Origin: an uncultured Rhizobiaceae group bacterium
GTDB taxonomy: Bacteria > Pseudomonadota > Alphaproteobacteria > Rhizobiales > Rhizobiaceae
Direction of reading: 5' to 3'
Assembly (NCBI GenBank): GCA_947501445.1
Contig: CANMVS010000015.1
Location: forward strand, 62,001 to 126,000
DNA: 64,000 nucleotides
The position numbers and the translations under genes were made by a program. Position 1 is the stretch's first letter, and each line of letters opens with the position of its first letter. Below are positions 46,289 through 55,728 of the stretch, one piece after another. The notes below the pieces were generated by a model. That model was not told the origin of the DNA. It saw only the letters and a list, made by a program, of their open reading frames with translations, and ran no database searches.

Positions 46289-46437
46289 AGCAAACGGTCA
46301 TATTCAGCTTCAGCATATTTGGTTAGAGTATCCGGAGCAGCCTATCGGTCAATTGTGAATTCTGTCGAAGATTTGTGTTTCTTATTCAATGTATTCGATT
46401 ATTGTGTGCCTGGTGGTAGTGCCGGGGAGTAATTATA

Positions 46438-48615
46438 TTGGCGAGTGCTGGTTTGCGGTCTAAATATCTTCCAATACTTGTGTTATTGGGCTGCGTAAGC
46501 GGTGTACTTATTGGTTTATTTCTGCCGCAACTGGCAAATTTCATTTCCCCGGTTGGACACATTTATATCCGTTTGATGGAAGTTGTGGTTCTTCCATACA
46601 TTATCTCGTCTCTGGTTTTGGGGCTGGGGCAACTTGCACCGCAAACGGCCTTAAAACTTTTCCGCAAAAGTTGGGTGGTCTATGTTGCTCTTTGGACGAT
46701 GTCGCTTGCGGTCATTATCATTGTCGCCTCCACGGTTCCGCTTGTAAAACAGGCTGCGGTGATCAATTTTGCTGCAACGCTGGGTGCGGTGCCAAGCGAC
46801 GCGCCGTCGCTGATCGAACTGTTGATACCGAATAATTTTTTCCAGGCACTCACCAATAATTATGTGCCATCGATTGTTCTCATCGGCATCATCTACGGTG
46901 TTGCGGTGCAACATATCGAAAAGCGCGGTGAATTTCTTAATATTCTGTCAGTGATCCGCGGTGCCAGTGTTCGTATCTGGGGATGGGTTGTCTATCTGGC
47001 GCCGATTGGCGTTTGCTCGCTTTTTGCCGACACGCTCAGCTCAATGGACCCGGACGGGTTGGCCGCGATGTCGCTGTATATGATCGTGGTTACGCTATCC
47101 GCGCTGCTCATCGGACTTTGGCTCCTGCCAATGTTGCTGACATCCTTTTTGCCGATGCGTTATTGGGAAATCATGACGGAACTGAAAGAAGCGTTTCTGA
47201 TTTCCATTGTTACATCCCTGTCTGTGGCGTCCTTGCCAATGATCCAGACCGCTGCTCAAAACATGGCAAAGAAATATTGCGGCAACGAGGATGAGAAGCA
47301 GCAAAAGGAGATCATCCAGACGACATTGTCGATCAGCTATCCGCTGGCACAGGTTGGCAACTTTTTCATAATGGCGTTTTTATTTTACGCATCATTTTAC
47401 TTTTTCGTACCTTTCAGTGTTTCACAGTTGTTCGAACTGCCCTTTGTCACGCTGCTCTCGGGTGTGGGTTCTCCGTCATCTTCAATTGGCGCAGTCGCCT
47501 TTATGGCCGAGTGGTTGAATATGCCCAGTGAAACGACGAATCTCTATGTCGAGACAATGTCGCTGACCCGTTATGCCCAGGTCCTTGCCTCCGTCGCAGC
47601 CTTTGCATTCGTCACCATCCTGGTGACATTTATTTTCTATGGGCGTGTAAGGCTTGATCTGAAACGTCTGATCATGACCTTGGCTGTGACCGCAGTATGT
47701 CTTTCGGGCATCTGGTCTGTCGGTCGCTGGGGCGGCACACATATCCAGTTGCATTCCCTGAACAATTACCTGGCTATGGGATTGCCGGACGAACTTCAGG
47801 CATTCAGCGACGCCAATCTGGTTTCCAATCTGGCGTCCAAACCAGATGAAGAAATCAGTACATCGCAGACCAATCGTGCTGTCGATAAGACAGATGGCAC
47901 CCTCGACAGGATTCAATCCAGCGGCGTGCTTCGTATTGGTATCAATCCAAACGTGATGCCCTTTTCCTACATTAACACGGCCAAAGAGCTGGTGGGCTAT
48001 GATGTGGAGATGATGTATCGTTTTGCCGATAGCATGAATGTTGAATTGAAATTCGTTGCCTATACCTGGCAGGAATTGGTGGATGATCTTGAAAAGTCCA
48101 AATTCGATATTGCCGTCGGCGGCATTTACATAACCGATGATCGTTTGAGAAAACTGACAGTCAGCGACCCCTATTATGAAAACCCATTGGCTTTGATCGT
48201 CAAAACATCGGATGTGGGGAAATTCTCGTCACGTGAACTGATTGACGGCACCGAGGGCGTCAATATCGCTGTCTTCAATGATCCGGTCCTGTTGCCCCAG
48301 GCAAAGCGCAGTTTTCCAAATGCAACTGTTACGGTTCTGGATAATTATGACAAACTGGAATCGCAAACGCATATTGATGCTGCATTGTGGACGCTTGAAC
48401 AGGCGCGCGCCTGGGCCATTTCACACGAGGGATATTCCGCTGTTGTACCCAAAAATACAGCAAGCCGGTTTCTCTTCGGTTATCTCATGGCACCCAATTC
48501 ACCTGGACTTTCCGACTATCTGAATTACTGGATGGGCATCAACGTGCAAGGGGGTGTTCAGGCCGACATGGCCAAGCGCTGGATTGACCCCGCAGCAACA
48601 GATGCAAGACGGTAG
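46438..48615 (+). CDS. Dicarboxylate/amino acid:cation symporter (SDF) fused to a C-terminal family-3 solute-binding protein domain
   Basis: N-terminal DAACS transporter (LMEVVVLPYIISSLVLGLGQL, GVGSPSSSIGAVAFM) then RIQSSGVLRIGINPNVMPFSYINTAKELVGYDVEMMYRFADSMNVEL...DIAVGGIYITDDRLRKLTVSDPYY; TTG start. Confidence 0.88.
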   Translation: MASAGLRSKYLPILVLLGCVSGVLIGLFLPQLANFISPVGHIYIRLMEVVVLPYIISSLVLGLGQLAPQTALKLFRKSWVVYVALWTMSLAVIIIVASTVPLVKQAAVINFAATLGAVPSDAPSLIELLIPNNFFQALTNNYVPSIVLIGIIYGVAVQHIEKRGEFLNILSVIRGASVRIWGWVVYLAPIGVCSLFADTLSSMDPDGLAAMSLYMIVVTLSALLIGLWLLPMLLTSFLPMRYWEIMTELKEAFLISIVTSLSVASLPMIQTAAQNMAKKYCGNEDEKQQKEIIQTTLSISYPLAQVGNFFIMAFLFYASFYFFVPFSVSQLFELPFVTLLSGVGSPSSSIGAVAFMAEWLNMPSETTNLYVETMSLTRYAQVLASVAAFAFVTILVTFIFYGRVRLDLKRLIMTLAVTAVCLSGIWSVGRWGGTHIQLHSLNNYLAMGLPDELQAFSDANLVSNLASKPDEEISTSQTNRAVDKTDGTLDRIQSSGVLRIGINPNVMPFSYINTAKELVGYDVEMMYRFADSMNVELKFVAYTWQELVDDLEKSKFDIAVGGIYITDDRLRKLTVSDPYYENPLALIVKTSDVGKFSSRELIDGTEGVNIAVFNDPVLLPQAKRSFPNATVTVLDNYDKLESQTHIDAALWTLEQARAWAISHEGYSAVVPKNTASRFLFGYLMAPNSPGLSDYLNYWMGINVQGGVQADMAKRWIDPAATDARR

Positions 48616-48630
48616 CAAGACATGCCAGTG

Positions 48631-49428
48631 TCATGATTTACTTTGGTCTTGCCCAATTTTTCGCCGCATCAGGTAGGCGTAAAGTGTCGGGGAACACCGG
48701 TTAATCAGCCAGGCCAGTTTTGCAATCCGACCGACAAGAATGTGGCGTGTTTTCCTGTGAAATCCAGCGACGATAATCCGTGCCGCTTCGTCGGCCAGCA
48801 TGCTGTCGATGGCATCTGTCGCTGAGCCAGGACGGGCAATGCCGTCTGGTGTATCAGCTATGCCGCCCGCATTGGTGGCAATAAATGAAGGTGCCGCTAT
48901 CAGGACATGGACACCGAAGGGGGTTTCCTCTGCTCTTAATGTGTTGAAAAACCCCTCCATCGCGTGTTTGCTCGCGGCATAGGCCGTTCGATTGACCAGG
49001 GGTGCAAACCCAGCAACAGAAGAAATGGCCAAATGAGTTCCCTGGCTCATGCGCAGCGCCTGCAGGAAATGCCGAGCCACGATTATGGCGCCAAAATAGT
49101 TGATGTCCATGATCTGGCGATGAGTTGCAGGCTGCGTTTCACCAAACGGTTGAAGCTGTGTGACACCTGCATTGTAGATGACCAGATCAATTGTCGGACG
49201 CTCGGTGATGATCTGCGTGCATACCTGCTCCACGCTCTGCCAGTCTGTCAGGTCGCAGGCATGGGCGGTGATCATGGTTGCGGCTTTGTCGCTACACAGC
49301 TGGTCAAGCTGAGGACCAGGCAGGTCGATCACCACGACGAACCAGCCTTCATCAATCAGCCGAGCCGTCAATGCCTTTCCAAGGCCGCCAGCGCCTCCTG
49401 TAATGACGGCCGTTTGCTGTTGGTTCAT
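48631..49428 (-). CDS. SDR-family oxidoreductase
   Basis: AVITGGAGGLGKALT, YNAGVT, SSVAGFAPLVNRTAYAASKHAM. Confidence 0.88.
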   Translation of the reverse strand: MNQQQTAVITGGAGGLGKALTARLIDEGWFVVVIDLPGPQLDQLCSDKAATMITAHACDLTDWQSVEQVCTQIITERPTIDLVIYNAGVTQLQPFGETQPATHRQIMDINYFGAIIVARHFLQALRMSQGTHLAISSVAGFAPLVNRTAYAASKHAMEGFFNTLRAEETPFGVHVLIAAPSFIATNAGGIADTPDGIARPGSATDAIDSMLADEAARIIVAGFHRKTRHILVGRIAKLAWLINRCSPTLYAYLMRRKIGQDQSKS

Positions 49429-50363
49429 AGACCGACACTCCGCCGCCACAGGTCAAATGTCGCAGTACTTGATTTTTGCGGATGATAGCCGAAGACTGTT
49501 TTCAGCCGGGTGTTGTCCAGCACCGGGCGAAACTGCAAAAACCGCACCTGTTGAGGGCCGTAGCGTGACAGCCGAAGCGGGTGAGCAATGGACAGGATCG
49601 TTTTGAGTAACCACGCCGGTATATGACGCACCGGTTTGTTCAACGTTGCGGCTATATCCATGACACTCACGGCGCCATCACCTGCAACATTAAAAATGCC
49701 TGCCGGGGCATCAGTCACCGCGCGCGCCAGGATGCGGGCCAGATCCCGGGTCCAGATGAAAACAAAGGGACTGTCGCTGCCGCGAATGGCAAGGATATGC
49801 TTGCGGTGAAACAGCGCCGTAATCTGATTTTCCAGTCCTTCACCAAGCACTGTGCCGACGCGCAGAATAACCTGCTCGAGTTCAGGCGCTGACTGGCGCA
49901 ACTGTTCCGCCATCTCCTCCACCAGCCGTTTGTGATAGGCGTAGGCGAACGCCCGGTTGCCGCGGAGCGGATTTTCCTCTGTGAGCGGAACCGGGTTATC
50001 CGGGTGGTAACCATAGGCAGCTCCGGAACTGGTAATGACAATACGTCCAACACCGTGGCGGGTGCAGGCGTTGAGAACATTTTGTGTTCCGGTAACGTCA
50101 ACAGAATAGGCGAATTCACGGCTGGAGCCCTTTGGTGGTGTTACGATGGATGCAAGATGAATGATTACCTCGGGGCGATATTTTTCCACGACCGCAGCCA
50201 CAGCGCTGCCGCGCACATCCATCTGTTGATAGGTCATGTCAGCTGGTAGCTGCATCGACGTCAGGACGTCCGTGGCAATGACGCTATTATCGGATCCGGC
50301 CAGTTCTTCCAGCAGGGCACGGCCCACGGCACCACCAGCGCCTGTTATTAATATTCTGGTCAT
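49425..50363 (-). CDS. NAD-dependent epimerase/dehydratase (extended SDR)
   Basis: ILITGAGGAVGRALLEEL, HLASIV, SSGAAYGYHPDNPVPLTEENP, YAYHKRLVE. Confidence 0.88.
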   Translation of the reverse strand: MTRILITGAGGAVGRALLEELAGSDNSVIATDVLTSMQLPADMTYQQMDVRGSAVAAVVEKYRPEVIIHLASIVTPPKGSSREFAYSVDVTGTQNVLNACTRHGVGRIVITSSGAAYGYHPDNPVPLTEENPLRGNRAFAYAYHKRLVEEMAEQLRQSAPELEQVILRVGTVLGEGLENQITALFHRKHILAIRGSDSPFVFIWTRDLARILARAVTDAPAGIFNVAGDGAVSVMDIAATLNKPVRHIPAWLLKTILSIAHPLRLSRYGPQQVRFLQFRPVLDNTRLKTVFGYHPQKSSTATFDLWRRSVGL

Positions 50364-51262
50364 CGGGTCGCCTTCGTGCGTGACAGGTAGCTGGCGAGCG
50401 CTATGCCGGTAATTGCGTGCCAGATGCCCCAGAAAGCAGCCACGACGGCCATGCCGCCCAACCCGCCGAAGAAAGCGAAAATCAGGATAAGCCCCAGACC
50501 GGAGTTCTGTATGCCTGTTTCGATCATGATGGCCCGCCTGTCATAGGCGCTGACCCCCGCCAATGTTGCCACTGCAAAGCCGCCAGAAAGTGCCAGCGCA
50601 TTATGAAGAACAACAAGCAAAGCGACCATACCGGCAAAATTCAAAAAGAAATTCCAGTTTGCAGCAAGCGCCAGCAGCACAAAAGCCACAAATATTATCA
50701 TCGAAAGCCACTGCATTGGCTTGCGTATTCTGGCGGCAAAACCCGGCTTTATACTATTGAGCGCAATGCCTGCGCATAGGGGCAGGGCGAGCATGAGTGA
50801 CAGGGTCAGCGCGACCTGCCAGGGGTCAATGGCAGTTCGCGTCAACAGGGCGTTGGTCGGCGCATACAGACTGCCCCAAAAGGCAATATTAAAGGGTGTG
50901 AGTGCGATGGCACCCATGGTTGCAAAGGCTGTCATGGAGACAGATAGAGCAGTATTGCCCCCGGCGCGGTGGGTGATGAAATTGGAGATATTACCGCCGG
51001 GGCAGGCGGCCACAAGAATGAGGCCGAGTGCAATGCTTGGACGTGGTTCAACTACAATTATCATGAGAAATGTCAGGGCAGGCAGGACGACAAACTGCGA
51101 TGCCAGCCCCACCAGCAACGACTTGGGTGCCCTGGTTACATTATAAAAATCCGCCGGCTTGAGGTCCAGGGCAATGGAGAACATGACAATGGCTAAAATG
51201 GCATTGAGAAGCGTCAGGGATGCCGGGCTGAAATTGAGCGCAATGGCGTCGATGTCGCTCAT
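50360..51262 (-). CDS. Bile acid:sodium symporter (BASS) family transporter
   Basis: MFSIALDLKPADF, CPGGNISNFITHRAGGNTALSVSMTAF, ETGIQNSGLGLILIF. Confidence 0.88.
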   Translation of the reverse strand: MSDIDAIALNFSPASLTLLNAILAIVMFSIALDLKPADFYNVTRAPKSLLVGLASQFVVLPALTFLMIIVVEPRPSIALGLILVAACPGGNISNFITHRAGGNTALSVSMTAFATMGAIALTPFNIAFWGSLYAPTNALLTRTAIDPWQVALTLSLMLALPLCAGIALNSIKPGFAARIRKPMQWLSMIIFVAFVLLALAANWNFFLNFAGMVALLVVLHNALALSGGFAVATLAGVSAYDRRAIMIETGIQNSGLGLILIFAFFGGLGGMAVVAAFWGIWHAITGIALASYLSRTKATR

Positions 51263-52611
51263 GAATCCGACCCGCTGAGCGCGCGTATTTTTTTCACAAC
51301 GGCGCTTCGGTAACTGTCCTTGTCCACATAATAGGCCATGCGTGGAATATCGAGGTAATCCATGCCAGCGGTAAGTCTTTCAAACCCGGATTTCTTTTCA
51401 GCCTGCAACTGTGTTGCTGCGCCGTTACCGGATCTTTGACCACCAATAAAACGGGCAACCAGCTCCGCCTGCTCATGGCGGCCCTGCCATCCAAGTCCTG
51501 TCGCCTCAACCATGCCCATGACGAATAGATCGTCGCGGGTCGGATGCATGCAATTGAGGTAGAGATGTGGTGCGAAATGCTGCCAGTTAAGCAGTGATCT
51601 ATCGATGAAAGGATAGTTAAGTTGATATCCGGTTGCCAATAGAATGAGGTCATAGTCACCTTGTGACCCATCCATGAAATGCACGGTATTTTTGTCAAGG
51701 TGGCTGATATCGGCGCGCACCTTCACATCGCCATGTCCGGCATGAAACAGAATGAGCGAATTGACGACCGGGTGAGACTGGTACAGCAGGTAATCGGGTT
51801 TGGGGAAGCCGTATTTTTCCGGATCGCCAACAAACCATTTGAGAACTTGCAGATCAACGCGCCGTTTCAACCACATTGGCAGACGTTTGGAACCGCTTAA
51901 TGTATCCGCCGGTTTTCCAAACAGATATTTGGGAACGAAATGATAACCACGGCGCACGGAGATGTCGCAGCTCTTGCCATGATGCACCGCGTCGATTGCA
52001 ATGTCGCAACCCGAATTGCCGGCACCAACGATCAGTACCCGTTTGTCCTTGAACTGCCGGGGATACCGGTAGGCGCTTGAATGGATGATTTCTCCGGAAA
52101 AATCACCATCGAAGGTCGCCCTGTTGGGATCGGAAAGCGTGCCATTTGCAATCAGCAGACCGGCAAAGACGGCTTCGTGCATTGCACCGGAACCATCACG
52201 CCAGCACACCCGCCAGCCTGCACCACTATCTCCCAGCGGCTCGGTTTCCAGTACCTCACATCCGAAGTTAAAATGGTCACGCAATGCATAATGGTCTGCA
52301 AATTCGTGGAAATATTTTAATATTTCACGGTGAGAAGGATATTCGGCGACGTCGTCGCGCATCGGGTAGTCGGTAAACTCCGTCGTATGTTTCGATGAAA
52401 TCAGATGAGCGGTTTCATACATTGTCGAGGCGGGATTTTCGATGTCCCACAAGCCGCCAATGTCGGTATGTCGTTCAAAACCCTGAAAGGGAATGGACTG
52501 CTCGGCAAGCACTTTTGCACAGGCCAGTCCCATCGGGCCTGCACCGATCAAGGCATATTTTTCTGTTGTGTCCGAGTTATTGTGAACCGTTACGTGCTTG
52601 CTGACCGCCAC
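51259..52611 (-). CDS. Flavin-containing monooxygenase
   Basis: ALIGAGPMGLACAKVL, FERHTDIGGLWD, RVLIVGAGNSGCDIAIDA. Confidence 0.9.
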   Translation of the reverse strand: MAVSKHVTVHNNSDTTEKYALIGAGPMGLACAKVLAEQSIPFQGFERHTDIGGLWDIENPASTMYETAHLISSKHTTEFTDYPMRDDVAEYPSHREILKYFHEFADHYALRDHFNFGCEVLETEPLGDSGAGWRVCWRDGSGAMHEAVFAGLLIANGTLSDPNRATFDGDFSGEIIHSSAYRYPRQFKDKRVLIVGAGNSGCDIAIDAVHHGKSCDISVRRGYHFVPKYLFGKPADTLSGSKRLPMWLKRRVDLQVLKWFVGDPEKYGFPKPDYLLYQSHPVVNSLILFHAGHGDVKVRADISHLDKNTVHFMDGSQGDYDLILLATGYQLNYPFIDRSLLNWQHFAPHLYLNCMHPTRDDLFVMGMVEATGLGWQGRHEQAELVARFIGGQRSGNGAATQLQAEKKSGFERLTAGMDYLDIPRMAYYVDKDSYRSAVVKKIRALSGSDS

Positions 52612-52645
52612 GCAGTTTCTCCCTGTTTTTTAGTTTTTTCTTAAA

Positions 52646-52661
52646 TTGAACGATCGTTAAA
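52646..52661. promoter_or_regulatory. Candidate TetR operator TTGAACGATCGTTAAA
   Basis: Palindrome TTnAACGATCGTTnAA in the FMO/TetR divergent region. Confidence 0.6.
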
Positions 52662-52680
52662 AATAGTGCAAGGTGTTTTT

Positions 52681-53391
52681 ATGGAAATCACGGTTCAAGC
52701 ACAAAAACAACGCCAAAGAGCGCCCTCCAAACGGTCACTCGCCACCCGGGAGAAAATTCTCAACGCGGCTGAGATGTTGTTTGCCCAAACGGGTTATGAG
52801 GGGACTTCAATTCGGGAAATTGCGGAAAGGGCCGGTGTACAAAAGGCGCTGGTCAATTTTCATGGTGGCCCGAAAGAGGATCTGTTTTTCAAGGTTGTTG
52901 AGCGCCGGGCGAAAGAACTGTCGGATTGCCGGATGCAGGCATTGACTGCCATGCTTGCAGGTCAGGAAAAAGTGACAGTGGGCGACATTATTTCGTGCTT
53001 CATTGCGCCCTATATGGAAAAGGCGACAAATGGTGGCATCCACTGGCGCGCCTATGCACGGCTGGTTGCGCAGGTGTCAGCAGACGAACGCTGGGCCGGG
53101 ATAAGTCAGGCCTGCTTTGATCCCACAGCGCAGGTATTTATTGAAGAAATCTGCAAACGCCACCCCATGGCGAACCGGCTGTCGGTGTCTTCAGGATTTG
53201 TATTTTGCGTTGCTTCGATGCTGGCAATGGTGACGTCGATGTGGCGTATGGATGCGCTTTCAGCAACAAAGGGTCTCACCGGGTCGGAGGATACATTTGC
53301 GCGACTGCCGCTGCTTGTGAAGTTTTGCAACGGTGGAATGGAAGACATTCTGCAGTTGGACGGCAATTCGCTTGAAAATGAAACGGTCTAA
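52681..53391 (+). CDS. TetR-family transcriptional regulator
   Basis: TREKILNAAEMLFAQTGYEGTSIREIAERAGVQKALVNFHGGPKEDLF. Confidence 0.92.
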   Translation: MEITVQAQKQRQRAPSKRSLATREKILNAAEMLFAQTGYEGTSIREIAERAGVQKALVNFHGGPKEDLFFKVVERRAKELSDCRMQALTAMLAGQEKVTVGDIISCFIAPYMEKATNGGIHWRAYARLVAQVSADERWAGISQACFDPTAQVFIEEICKRHPMANRLSVSSGFVFCVASMLAMVTSMWRMDALSATKGLTGSEDTFARLPLLVKFCNGGMEDILQLDGNSLENETV

Positions 53392-54162: not shown

Positions 54163-55728
54163 ATGAATATTCACAGCGAAACATCCGGTGCCTATCGACT
54201 TGAAGTATTTCCATTGCGCGGTGAAGTTGTTGCGCGCAATGGAAACAGTATATTGGCGGCAAGCCGGTCTGCAAAATTCATGCGGGAAACGCGCCTGGCG
54301 CCGACGATTTATTTCCCGCTTGACGATGTTGCTGCAACACTGCAGGCGAGTGAAAAGAGAACCTTTTGTCCATTCAAAGGAACCGCAACCTATTGGGATG
54401 TCATTGTTGATGACCAGATCATTGCCGATGGCGCATGGACCTATCGAAGCGCACTGCCGGAATCGCGTGAAATAGAGGGTTATGTCAGCTTCACCCAAGA
54501 GGCACTCACCCATCTGGATATGGGCGGGAATGCCGTATCCCCGGGTCAGGAGGGCAATATCTCCGGCCCCATTGTTGACTGGATCATGCGAGAGGCATGG
54601 CTTTGCACGTCTCCGGAAGAACTGACAGCGGCTATTGCGCGCAAATTTGTCGAAGACGGTATCGCTGTTTCCAGAATGAGCGCTCTGATCTGGTCTCTGC
54701 ATCCCATGATTGCCGGTAAAAACTATGTCTGGACCAGTGAGGAAAACAAGGTTGAAACCTATACGCCATCGCATGATCTGTTGACGAACCCGGTTTACGT
54801 CAACAGCCCCTTGCGTCATGTGACCAACGGGCTTGGCGGCGTCCGCCAGAATCTTCAGAACGATAAGGTGGAATTCAATTTTCCCATTTTGGAAGAGCTG
54901 AAAGCAAAGGGCGCCACCGACTATGTGGCCATGCCACTACAGTTCTCAAATGGTCAGATAAATGTTGTCACATTGACCAGCAATCACCCCAATGGTTTTA
55001 CGACAGCCAATCTTGGGCTGATCTTTGAATGCCTGTCGGTGATCAGCAGACTGTATGAAGTCTTTGCCTTGCGTGACAATGCGACGGCCCTTTTGGAAAC
55101 CTATCTGGGCAGGCGCACTGGCGAGCGGGTTCTTGGTGGTGAAATTCGTCGCGGCGACGGGGATCAGATTGATGCGGCAATCCTTTTTTGCGATTTGAGA
55201 GGATCATCGCGACTTGAGGAGCAATTGGGCCGGGAGGCCTATCTGGTTTTGTTGAACCGGTTTTTTGAGACGACAACCGCGATTATCAATGAGCACGGTG
55301 GTGAGGTTCTCAAATTTATCGGTGATGCTGTTCTGGCCATCTTCCCGATGAGTGAGGACAGGGATGTTGCCTGTGGGCAGGCGCTCGCTTCGGCACTGGA
55401 AATTGATCGCCGCCTGCATGATAGCGAAAGTGAAAAAGCCGGCGGAAATATGGATTGTGCGATTGGGCTTGCGTTTGGCAATGTTACCTATGGCAATGTC
55501 GGTTCAAAAGAGCGATTGGATTTCACCGTTATCGGATCCGCGGCAAATGTCGCAGCGCGCCTCGGCGATCTGGGCAAAACTCTGGGGCATGCAATTGTTG
55601 CGACAAAAGAGATTGCCCAGAGCAATCAGGACGTCATGCAATCGCTTGGGGCTCATGAATTGCACAATGTTTCGGTAGCGGTTGAAGCCTGGGCACCACG
55701 CGTACCGGTGCCAACTTCTGTCCAATAG
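54163..55728 (+). CDS. Class III adenylate/guanylate cyclase with N-terminal DUF427-like domain
   Basis: N-term LAPTIYFPLDDVAATLQASEKRTFCPFKGTATYWDVIVDDQIIADGAWTYRSALPESREIEGYVSF (DUF427-like); C-term AAILFCDLRGSSRLEEQLG...GGEVLKFIGDAVLAIFP cyclase. Confidence 0.88.
   Translation: MNIHSETSGAYRLEVFPLRGEVVARNGNSILAASRSAKFMRETRLAPTIYFPLDDVAATLQASEKRTFCPFKGTATYWDVIVDDQIIADGAWTYRSALPESREIEGYVSFTQEALTHLDMGGNAVSPGQEGNISGPIVDWIMREAWLCTSPEELTAAIARKFVEDGIAVSRMSALIWSLHPMIAGKNYVWTSEENKVETYTPSHDLLTNPVYVNSPLRHVTNGLGGVRQNLQNDKVEFNFPILEELKAKGATDYVAMPLQFSNGQINVVTLTSNHPNGFTTANLGLIFECLSVISRLYEVFALRDNATALLETYLGRRTGERVLGGEIRRGDGDQIDAAILFCDLRGSSRLEEQLGREAYLVLLNRFFETTTAIINEHGGEVLKFIGDAVLAIFPMSEDRDVACGQALASALEIDRRLHDSESEKAGGNMDCAIGLAFGNVTYGNVGSKERLDFTVIGSAANVAARLGDLGKTLGHAIVATKEIAQSNQDVMQSLGAHELHNVSVAVEAWAPRVPVPTSVQ

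Follow-up and report, generated by a model that had tools for sequence, protein, structure and literature searches.

The window analysed here, i.e. the whole stretch of 64,000 nucleotides, carries on its forward strand a gene whose product joins a membrane transporter domain to a solute-binding protein (SBP) domain (Table 1). All 725 codons are open, as read from the sequence, and Pfam detects an SDF domain (PF00375; 146.6 bits, cut-off 27.9) followed in the same frame by an SBP_bac_3 domain (PF00497; residues 498-716, 87.2 bits, cut-off 26.4). The preliminary description, made from the sequence, had assigned the N-terminal ~430 residues to an SDF/DAACS transporter and the C-terminal ~230 residues to an SBP within a single uninterrupted frame, and the Pfam coordinates bear this out. 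Two TTG codons are candidates for the start and differ by five residues; in the alignment, the orthologues begin at the second, 46453. NCBIfam matches were all weak and below cut-off, the SDF half pointing to DctA and GltP models and the SBP half to several amino-acid SBP models. Pfam recognised only SDF and SBP_bac_3 in the protein; no ABC permease or ATPase domain, signalling output domain, DctP/TAXI/TctC-type SBP or DctM/TctA/GltS-type membrane part was found in it, and ABC permease and ATPase domains were likewise absent from the ten window neighbours scanned. A full-length structure model of the protein, built from 7 sequences, had a pLDDT of 41 and was not used.

Table 1. Positions in the window of the fusion gene, its likely ribosome-binding site and the parts of its product
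Feature	Position	Strand	Basis or remark
Likely ribosome-binding site, GGGGAG	46424..46429	+	8 nt before TTG 46438; read from the sequence
SDF-SBP fusion CDS, 725 aa	46438..48615	+	Start TTG 46438 or TTG 46453
SDF domain, residues 13-376	46474..47565	+	PF00375, E 1.4e-42
TM7 site, residues 300-311, SYPLAQVGNFFI, without the NMDGT/NLDGT motif	47335..47370	+	Alignment with canonical SDFs
HP2 tip, residues 341-351, without GVPG and 3 residues shorter than in canonical proteins	47458..47490	+	
TM8, residues 373-391, with the canonical D, N and D/N all substituted and one Arg (R378) kept nearby	47554..47610	+	
Additional helix TM9, residues 411-429; the loop before it contains four K/R and one D/E	47668..47724	+	TM9 in 28/28 fusions
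Predicted periplasmic linker, residues 430-487, ~58 residues	47725..47898	+	Evolves faster than either domain
SBP_bac_3 domain, residues 488-725	47899..48612	+	PF00497, E 1e-24; Foldseek
R569, equivalent of the carboxylate-binding Arg in amino-acid SBPs	48142..48144	+	Sequence alignment
T652, at the position where amino-acid SBPs have an Asp for the alpha-amino group	48391..48393	+	Sequence alignment

A short-peptide scan of GTDB contigs identified the full-length fusion at seven further loci (Nitratireductor, Hoeflea, a Rhizobiaceae MAG and four Roseibium/Labrenzia), six of which were aligned and show 57-66% identity to the window fusion. Profile searches added ~20 distant fusions with the same order of parts, scattered over the alpha- and gammaproteobacteria at ~20-30% identity. 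A frame error or chimera joining two genes was therefore rejected, on the strength of these independent loci and of the dN/dS values given below. Genome surveys, which covered the Pseudomonadota, detected the full-length fusion in 7/299 genomes of the family to which the window belongs, 2/385 genomes of its class, 8/369 genomes of the gammaproteobacterial class (two further genomes there being incomplete) and 5/399 genomes across the phylum; in one of these five the match above threshold covers the SDF half only, although the ORF also includes the SBP. Thus, the SDF-SBP architecture is widespread but patchy. The scan of viral contigs yielded no further relatives. The fusion is the sole SDF protein detected in G000, G613, G553, G477 and G512, and no full-length stand-alone SDF of the fusion clade was found in the ~1450 genomes searched, so that the SBP appears to be obligatory. 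One stand-alone SDF with a low score (L104, 175 bits) has a very long branch and falls on the canonical side of the SDF tree described below.

The history of the two halves was examined in a comparison set of 28 fusions (the window protein and 27 others). In a tree of the 28 fusion SDFs and 22 canonical SDFs, a branch with an SH-aLRT value of 100 separates all the fusions, which have a long stem, from the canonical proteins. The 28 fusion SBP halves are likewise split from 14 stand-alone SBPs (SH-aLRT 99), an outgroup biased by the retrieval of its members with the fusion profile, and both trees are the product of quick searches and include some long branches. The SDF and SBP distance matrices are correlated with r = 0.92, a value reached by 0/2000 permutations, and this shared history is consistent with one old fusion event. 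In pairs of alphaproteobacterial orthologues, dN/dS is 0.05-0.11 for the SDF half and 0.04-0.14 for the SBP half, and higher in the linker, values that are rough because several pairs have high dS; as judged from these ratios, both halves are under purifying selection, the SDF half being the better conserved one in several of the pairs.

Canonical SLC1 proteins have eight transmembrane segments and a cytoplasmic C-terminus, whereas hydropathy analysis reveals an additional hydrophobic segment (TM9) after TM8 in every one of the 28 fusions. The loop between TM8 and TM9 has 2-5 K/R and at most one D/E in all of them. If the N-terminus is cytoplasmic and the preceding segments follow the canonical SLC1 topology, TM9 would place the SBP domain in the periplasm, and a periplasmic location is thus predicted from hydropathy and charge, in line with the location presumed in the preliminary description.

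The residues that form the ion and substrate sites of the family were compared between the 28 fusions and the 22 canonical SDFs after alignment to E. coli GltP. In GltTk, the NMDGT region and TM8 bear the Na+ and aspartate ligands, and the TM7 NMDGT/NLDGT motif corresponds to the Na1 and Na3 sites (PMC5110648). The TM7 Asn is present in 18/22 canonical proteins and the TM7 Asp in 13/22, both being found in 0/28 fusions, and the window protein reads AQVGN at the position of the motif. The GVPG tip of HP2 has lost 3 or 6 residues in 28/28 fusions. Within TM8, where the register is uncertain by a few residues, the Asp (19/22), the Asn (21/22) and the Asp/Asn (20/22) of the canonical proteins all occur in 0/28 fusions; most fusions keep a basic residue at the start of TM8, near the canonical Arg. 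Other positions are conserved among the fusions, namely P267 and N133 (28/28 each), G307 (27/28) and G344 (26/28). Pfam SDF scores differ accordingly, being mostly 220-450 bits for proteins with the canonical site vs ~130-185 bits for the fusions.

As the canonical Na+ and substrate residues are replaced or deleted, neither the coupling ion nor the substrate of the fusion can be inferred from the family. The claim that the SDF half is a Na+/H+-dicarboxylate-type symporter is therefore not sustained by the alignment; although the domain belongs to the SDF superfamily, this label is unsafe for it, and so are automatic 'dicarboxylate symporter' labels on SDF-SBP proteins in general. An ordinary symporter of this type, to which a functionally idle SBP had been appended by accident, would agree with the NCBI name of one relative ('cation:dicarboxylase symporter family transporter'), which describes the SDF half only; the age of the fusion, the low dN/dS of the SBP half, the lack of any observed SBP loss and the missing canonical site already disfavour this explanation, which is hardly credible.

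The closest solved sequences and folds to the SBP half are cyclohexadienyl dehydratases (5jos, 6wup, 3kbr), their reconstructed ancestors and amino-acid SBPs. For the model of the SBP half, which has a pLDDT of only 64, the best Foldseek hits were cyclohexadienyl dehydratases and amino-acid-binding SBPs, with an E-value of 2e-18, in agreement with a two-lobed fold. Comparison of the ligand residues, which rests on the fusion rows only, indicates that R569 is invariant in the window clade, the Arg being variable in the gamma-type fusions and absent from some of them, and that an Asp occurs at the position of T652 in 0/28 fusions. As R569 is retained and the Asp for the alpha-amino group is missing, a carboxylate is a more plausible ligand than a standard amino acid, most likely one that has no free alpha-amino group. 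The dehydratases are themselves enzymes derived from SBPs, from which the fusion differs in that Leu619 aligns with their catalytic Glu, presumably Glu173. Dehydratase activity of the SBP half is thus unlikely.

Upstream of the fusion lie genes for a biotin carboxylase/PCC alpha subunit, an aldo-keto reductase, a methylmalonyl-CoA mutase and a 3-hydroxyisobutyrate-dehydrogenase-like protein. Hoeflea, Nitratireductor and G477 share parts of this gene order, which do not recur at the Roseibium and gamma loci examined. A ligand deduced from the propionate/methylmalonyl-CoA neighbourhood was not adopted, the context being confined to one genus. On the other side of the fusion, positions 48631-53391 of the window hold minus-strand SDR, epimerase, SBF (bile-acid-symporter family) and FMO-like genes with a TetR regulator. 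A natural fusion-free comparison is provided by G667, of the same genus (L123, G667:C21:128000-146000), in which the syntenic locus lacks both the fusion and the 3-hydroxyisobutyrate-dehydrogenase-like gene, and PCC alpha and mutase genes are followed by the conserved SDR-to-FMO block, TetR and cyclase genes. The cyclase gene of the window (54163-55728, forward strand), ~5.5 kb from the fusion, combines a DUF427 domain with a class III nucleotide cyclase.

The neighbouring cyclase bears on the main rival explanation, in which the fusion would be a receptor derived from a transporter, with a transport-dead SDF half serving as the anchor or conformational transducer of the periplasmic SBP and signalling to a partner protein. 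Three genus relatives have a DUF427-class III cyclase as the next gene downstream of the fusion, and SLC5-STAC kinases illustrate that a transporter fold can be turned into a sensor (PMC9100948). The erased Na+ site, common to 28/28 fusions, is the strongest reason for doubt about transport and keeps the receptor explanation alive. However, the cyclase gene is kept in the G667 locus without the fusion and thus does not depend on it, and in G512 the two genes are megabases apart, which weakens any coupling between them. No regulator is common to the Roseibium and gamma loci, the fusion, unlike the SLC5-STAC type of sensor, has no signalling output domain in its own chain, and the better conservation of the SDF half in several pairs exceeds the needs of a mere anchor. 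A receptor function is considered unlikely.

A different neighbourhood is found around the gamma-type fusions. FUSC/DUF2955 and HlyD exporter genes adjoin the fusions in G368, G891, G1011 and G1194, and Pseudoalteromonas xiamenensis, found separately, is a fifth case (the gamma-type loci with these genes being L069, L073, L076, L125 and L127). FUSC within 8 kb of the fusions was observed 4 times against 0.13 expected (Poisson P ~1e-5, uncorrected and post hoc, with G368 and G891 representing one clade). The association would fit a fusion that, at least in the gamma-type branch, forms part of an exporter system and monitors or exchanges the organic acid expelled by it; FUSC and HlyD genes are, however, absent around the window and the Roseibium loci, and such a role is very improbable.

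An arrangement of the same two components in separate genes was found in the Rhizobiales. On plasmid 1 of Methylobacterium bullatum (L128:4986-7223), a canonical DctA/GltP-like SDF gene (396 bits) that is not a fusion and keeps the NLDG and DMGR motifs lies 60 bp upstream of a separate SBP_bac_3 gene. The product of the latter has a signal-peptide-like start and is most similar to glutamate/aspartate SBPs, and the next gene reads as an aspartate ammonia-lyase. Among the 12 closest homologues of this SDF (>=57% identity) in 229 genomes of the order, which possibly include M. bullatum itself, since G028 matches at 96-100%, nine have an SBP_bac_3 gene on the same strand at most 200 bp downstream. 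These pairs span four Rhizobiales families (L149-L157), with some of the ORFs overlapping; no permease gene lies between the paired SDF and SBP, and a separate SBP-plus-permease operon is close by in both genomes of family f2. The unfused pair resembles the fusion in that an SDF and a family-3 SBP are genetically joined without an ABC permease of their own. It differs from it in having separate genes, a canonical SDF of a different lineage and a secreted, GltI-like SBP. Conservation of the pair suggests that SLC1 proteins became paired with SBPs more than once, and the pair is possibly an SBP-dependent SLC1 symporter for aspartate or glutamate.

The pairing of an SLC1 gene with an ordinary secreted glutamate/aspartate-type SBP also argues against a non-canonical SLC1 transporter or anion channel that binds the solute at a site of its own and uses the SBP as a regulatory lid or gate, with no delivery of substrate. 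Such a protein would account for the fold features retained in the SDF half (e.g. P267, G307, G344 and N133) and for the variation of the SBP ligand residues between clades, but the SBP is constrained as strongly as the transporter half, and this possibility appears improbable.

Before the description of TAXI-GltS in 2025, SBP-dependent secondary transport was known only from the TRAP and TTT transporters (PMC12344293), and the view that SBPs serve ABC or TRAP systems only no longer holds. TAXI-GltS (Bordetella pertussis BP0403/BP0402 and Lachnospiraceae fusions; PMC12344293) likewise combines an elevator-type secondary transporter with an SBP, sometimes in one chain. Its SBP is of the TAXI type, N-terminal and associated with GltS of the ESS (Na+/glutamate symporter) family, whereas the fusion has an SBP_bac_3 domain at the C-terminus, behind TM9, on an SLC1-type protein that lacks the canonical site. 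TRAP and TTT transporters share the principle of SBP-dependent secondary transport, with SBP families and membrane components unrelated to those of the fusion and usually in separate chains. The fusion may work like these three systems and is not a member of their classes. ABC importers with a permease-fused SBP (GlnPQ type, e.g. PDB 6h30) also have a family-3 SBP covalently bound to the transporter, but in an ATP-driven ABC permease. SLC1/DAACS proteins themselves (GltPh, GltTk, E. coli GltP, DctA, SstT, TcyP) have in common with the fusion the SDF superfamily and the layout of scaffold and transport domain; the fusion forms a separate clade that has lost NMDGT, GVPG and the TM8 D/N/D, has a shorter HP2 and has gained TM9 and the SBP. 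A search of the open-licence literature yielded no description of an SLC1-SBP fusion, a result that does not imply absence elsewhere.

Considered together, the SDF-SBP fusion probably represents a hitherto uncharacterised type of transporter assisted by a binding protein. The preliminary description had offered this role or that of a transporter-linked sensor, and of the two the former is retained as the best reading. On balance, the fusion is somewhat more likely than not to be a single-chain secondary transporter of the elevator type for a carboxylate, assisted by its own tethered binding protein, a reading that draws indirect support from the unfused Rhizobiales pair and from the TAXI-GltS precedent (PMC12344293); transport itself is not assured, owing to the loss of the Na+ and substrate residues. 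In such a transporter, an SLC1-type elevator composed of a scaffold and a transport domain (HP1, TM7, HP2, TM8) would reside in the inner membrane, and the ninth helix would bring the C-terminus to the periplasm. The SBP, on its linker, would capture the ligand and hand it to the transport domain, as proposed for TAXI-GltS (PMC12344293), with transport driven by an ion at a non-canonical site. A more specific version, in which an SLC1-fold elevator without the classical site works only with its own tethered SBP, using a new ion coupling or none, is possible, the balance being somewhat against it; if true, it would represent a further class of SBP-dependent secondary transporter. The authors of the TAXI-GltS study asked whether the elevator mechanism permits SBP function, a question that, as they noted, additional classes would make it possible to test (PMC12344293). 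No elevator fold is better characterised than SLC1, for which many structures exist, and an SLC1-SBP fusion therefore makes the question directly testable in one purified chain, while the lost Na+/substrate site would reveal the extent to which the SLC1 machinery can be remodelled.

Profile matches in G632, G410 and G574 (L031, L032 and L033), which begin around TM8/TM9 and include a single stop codon, represent stand-alone SBP ORFs. At L080, a short upstream ORF resembles the end of an ABC permease.
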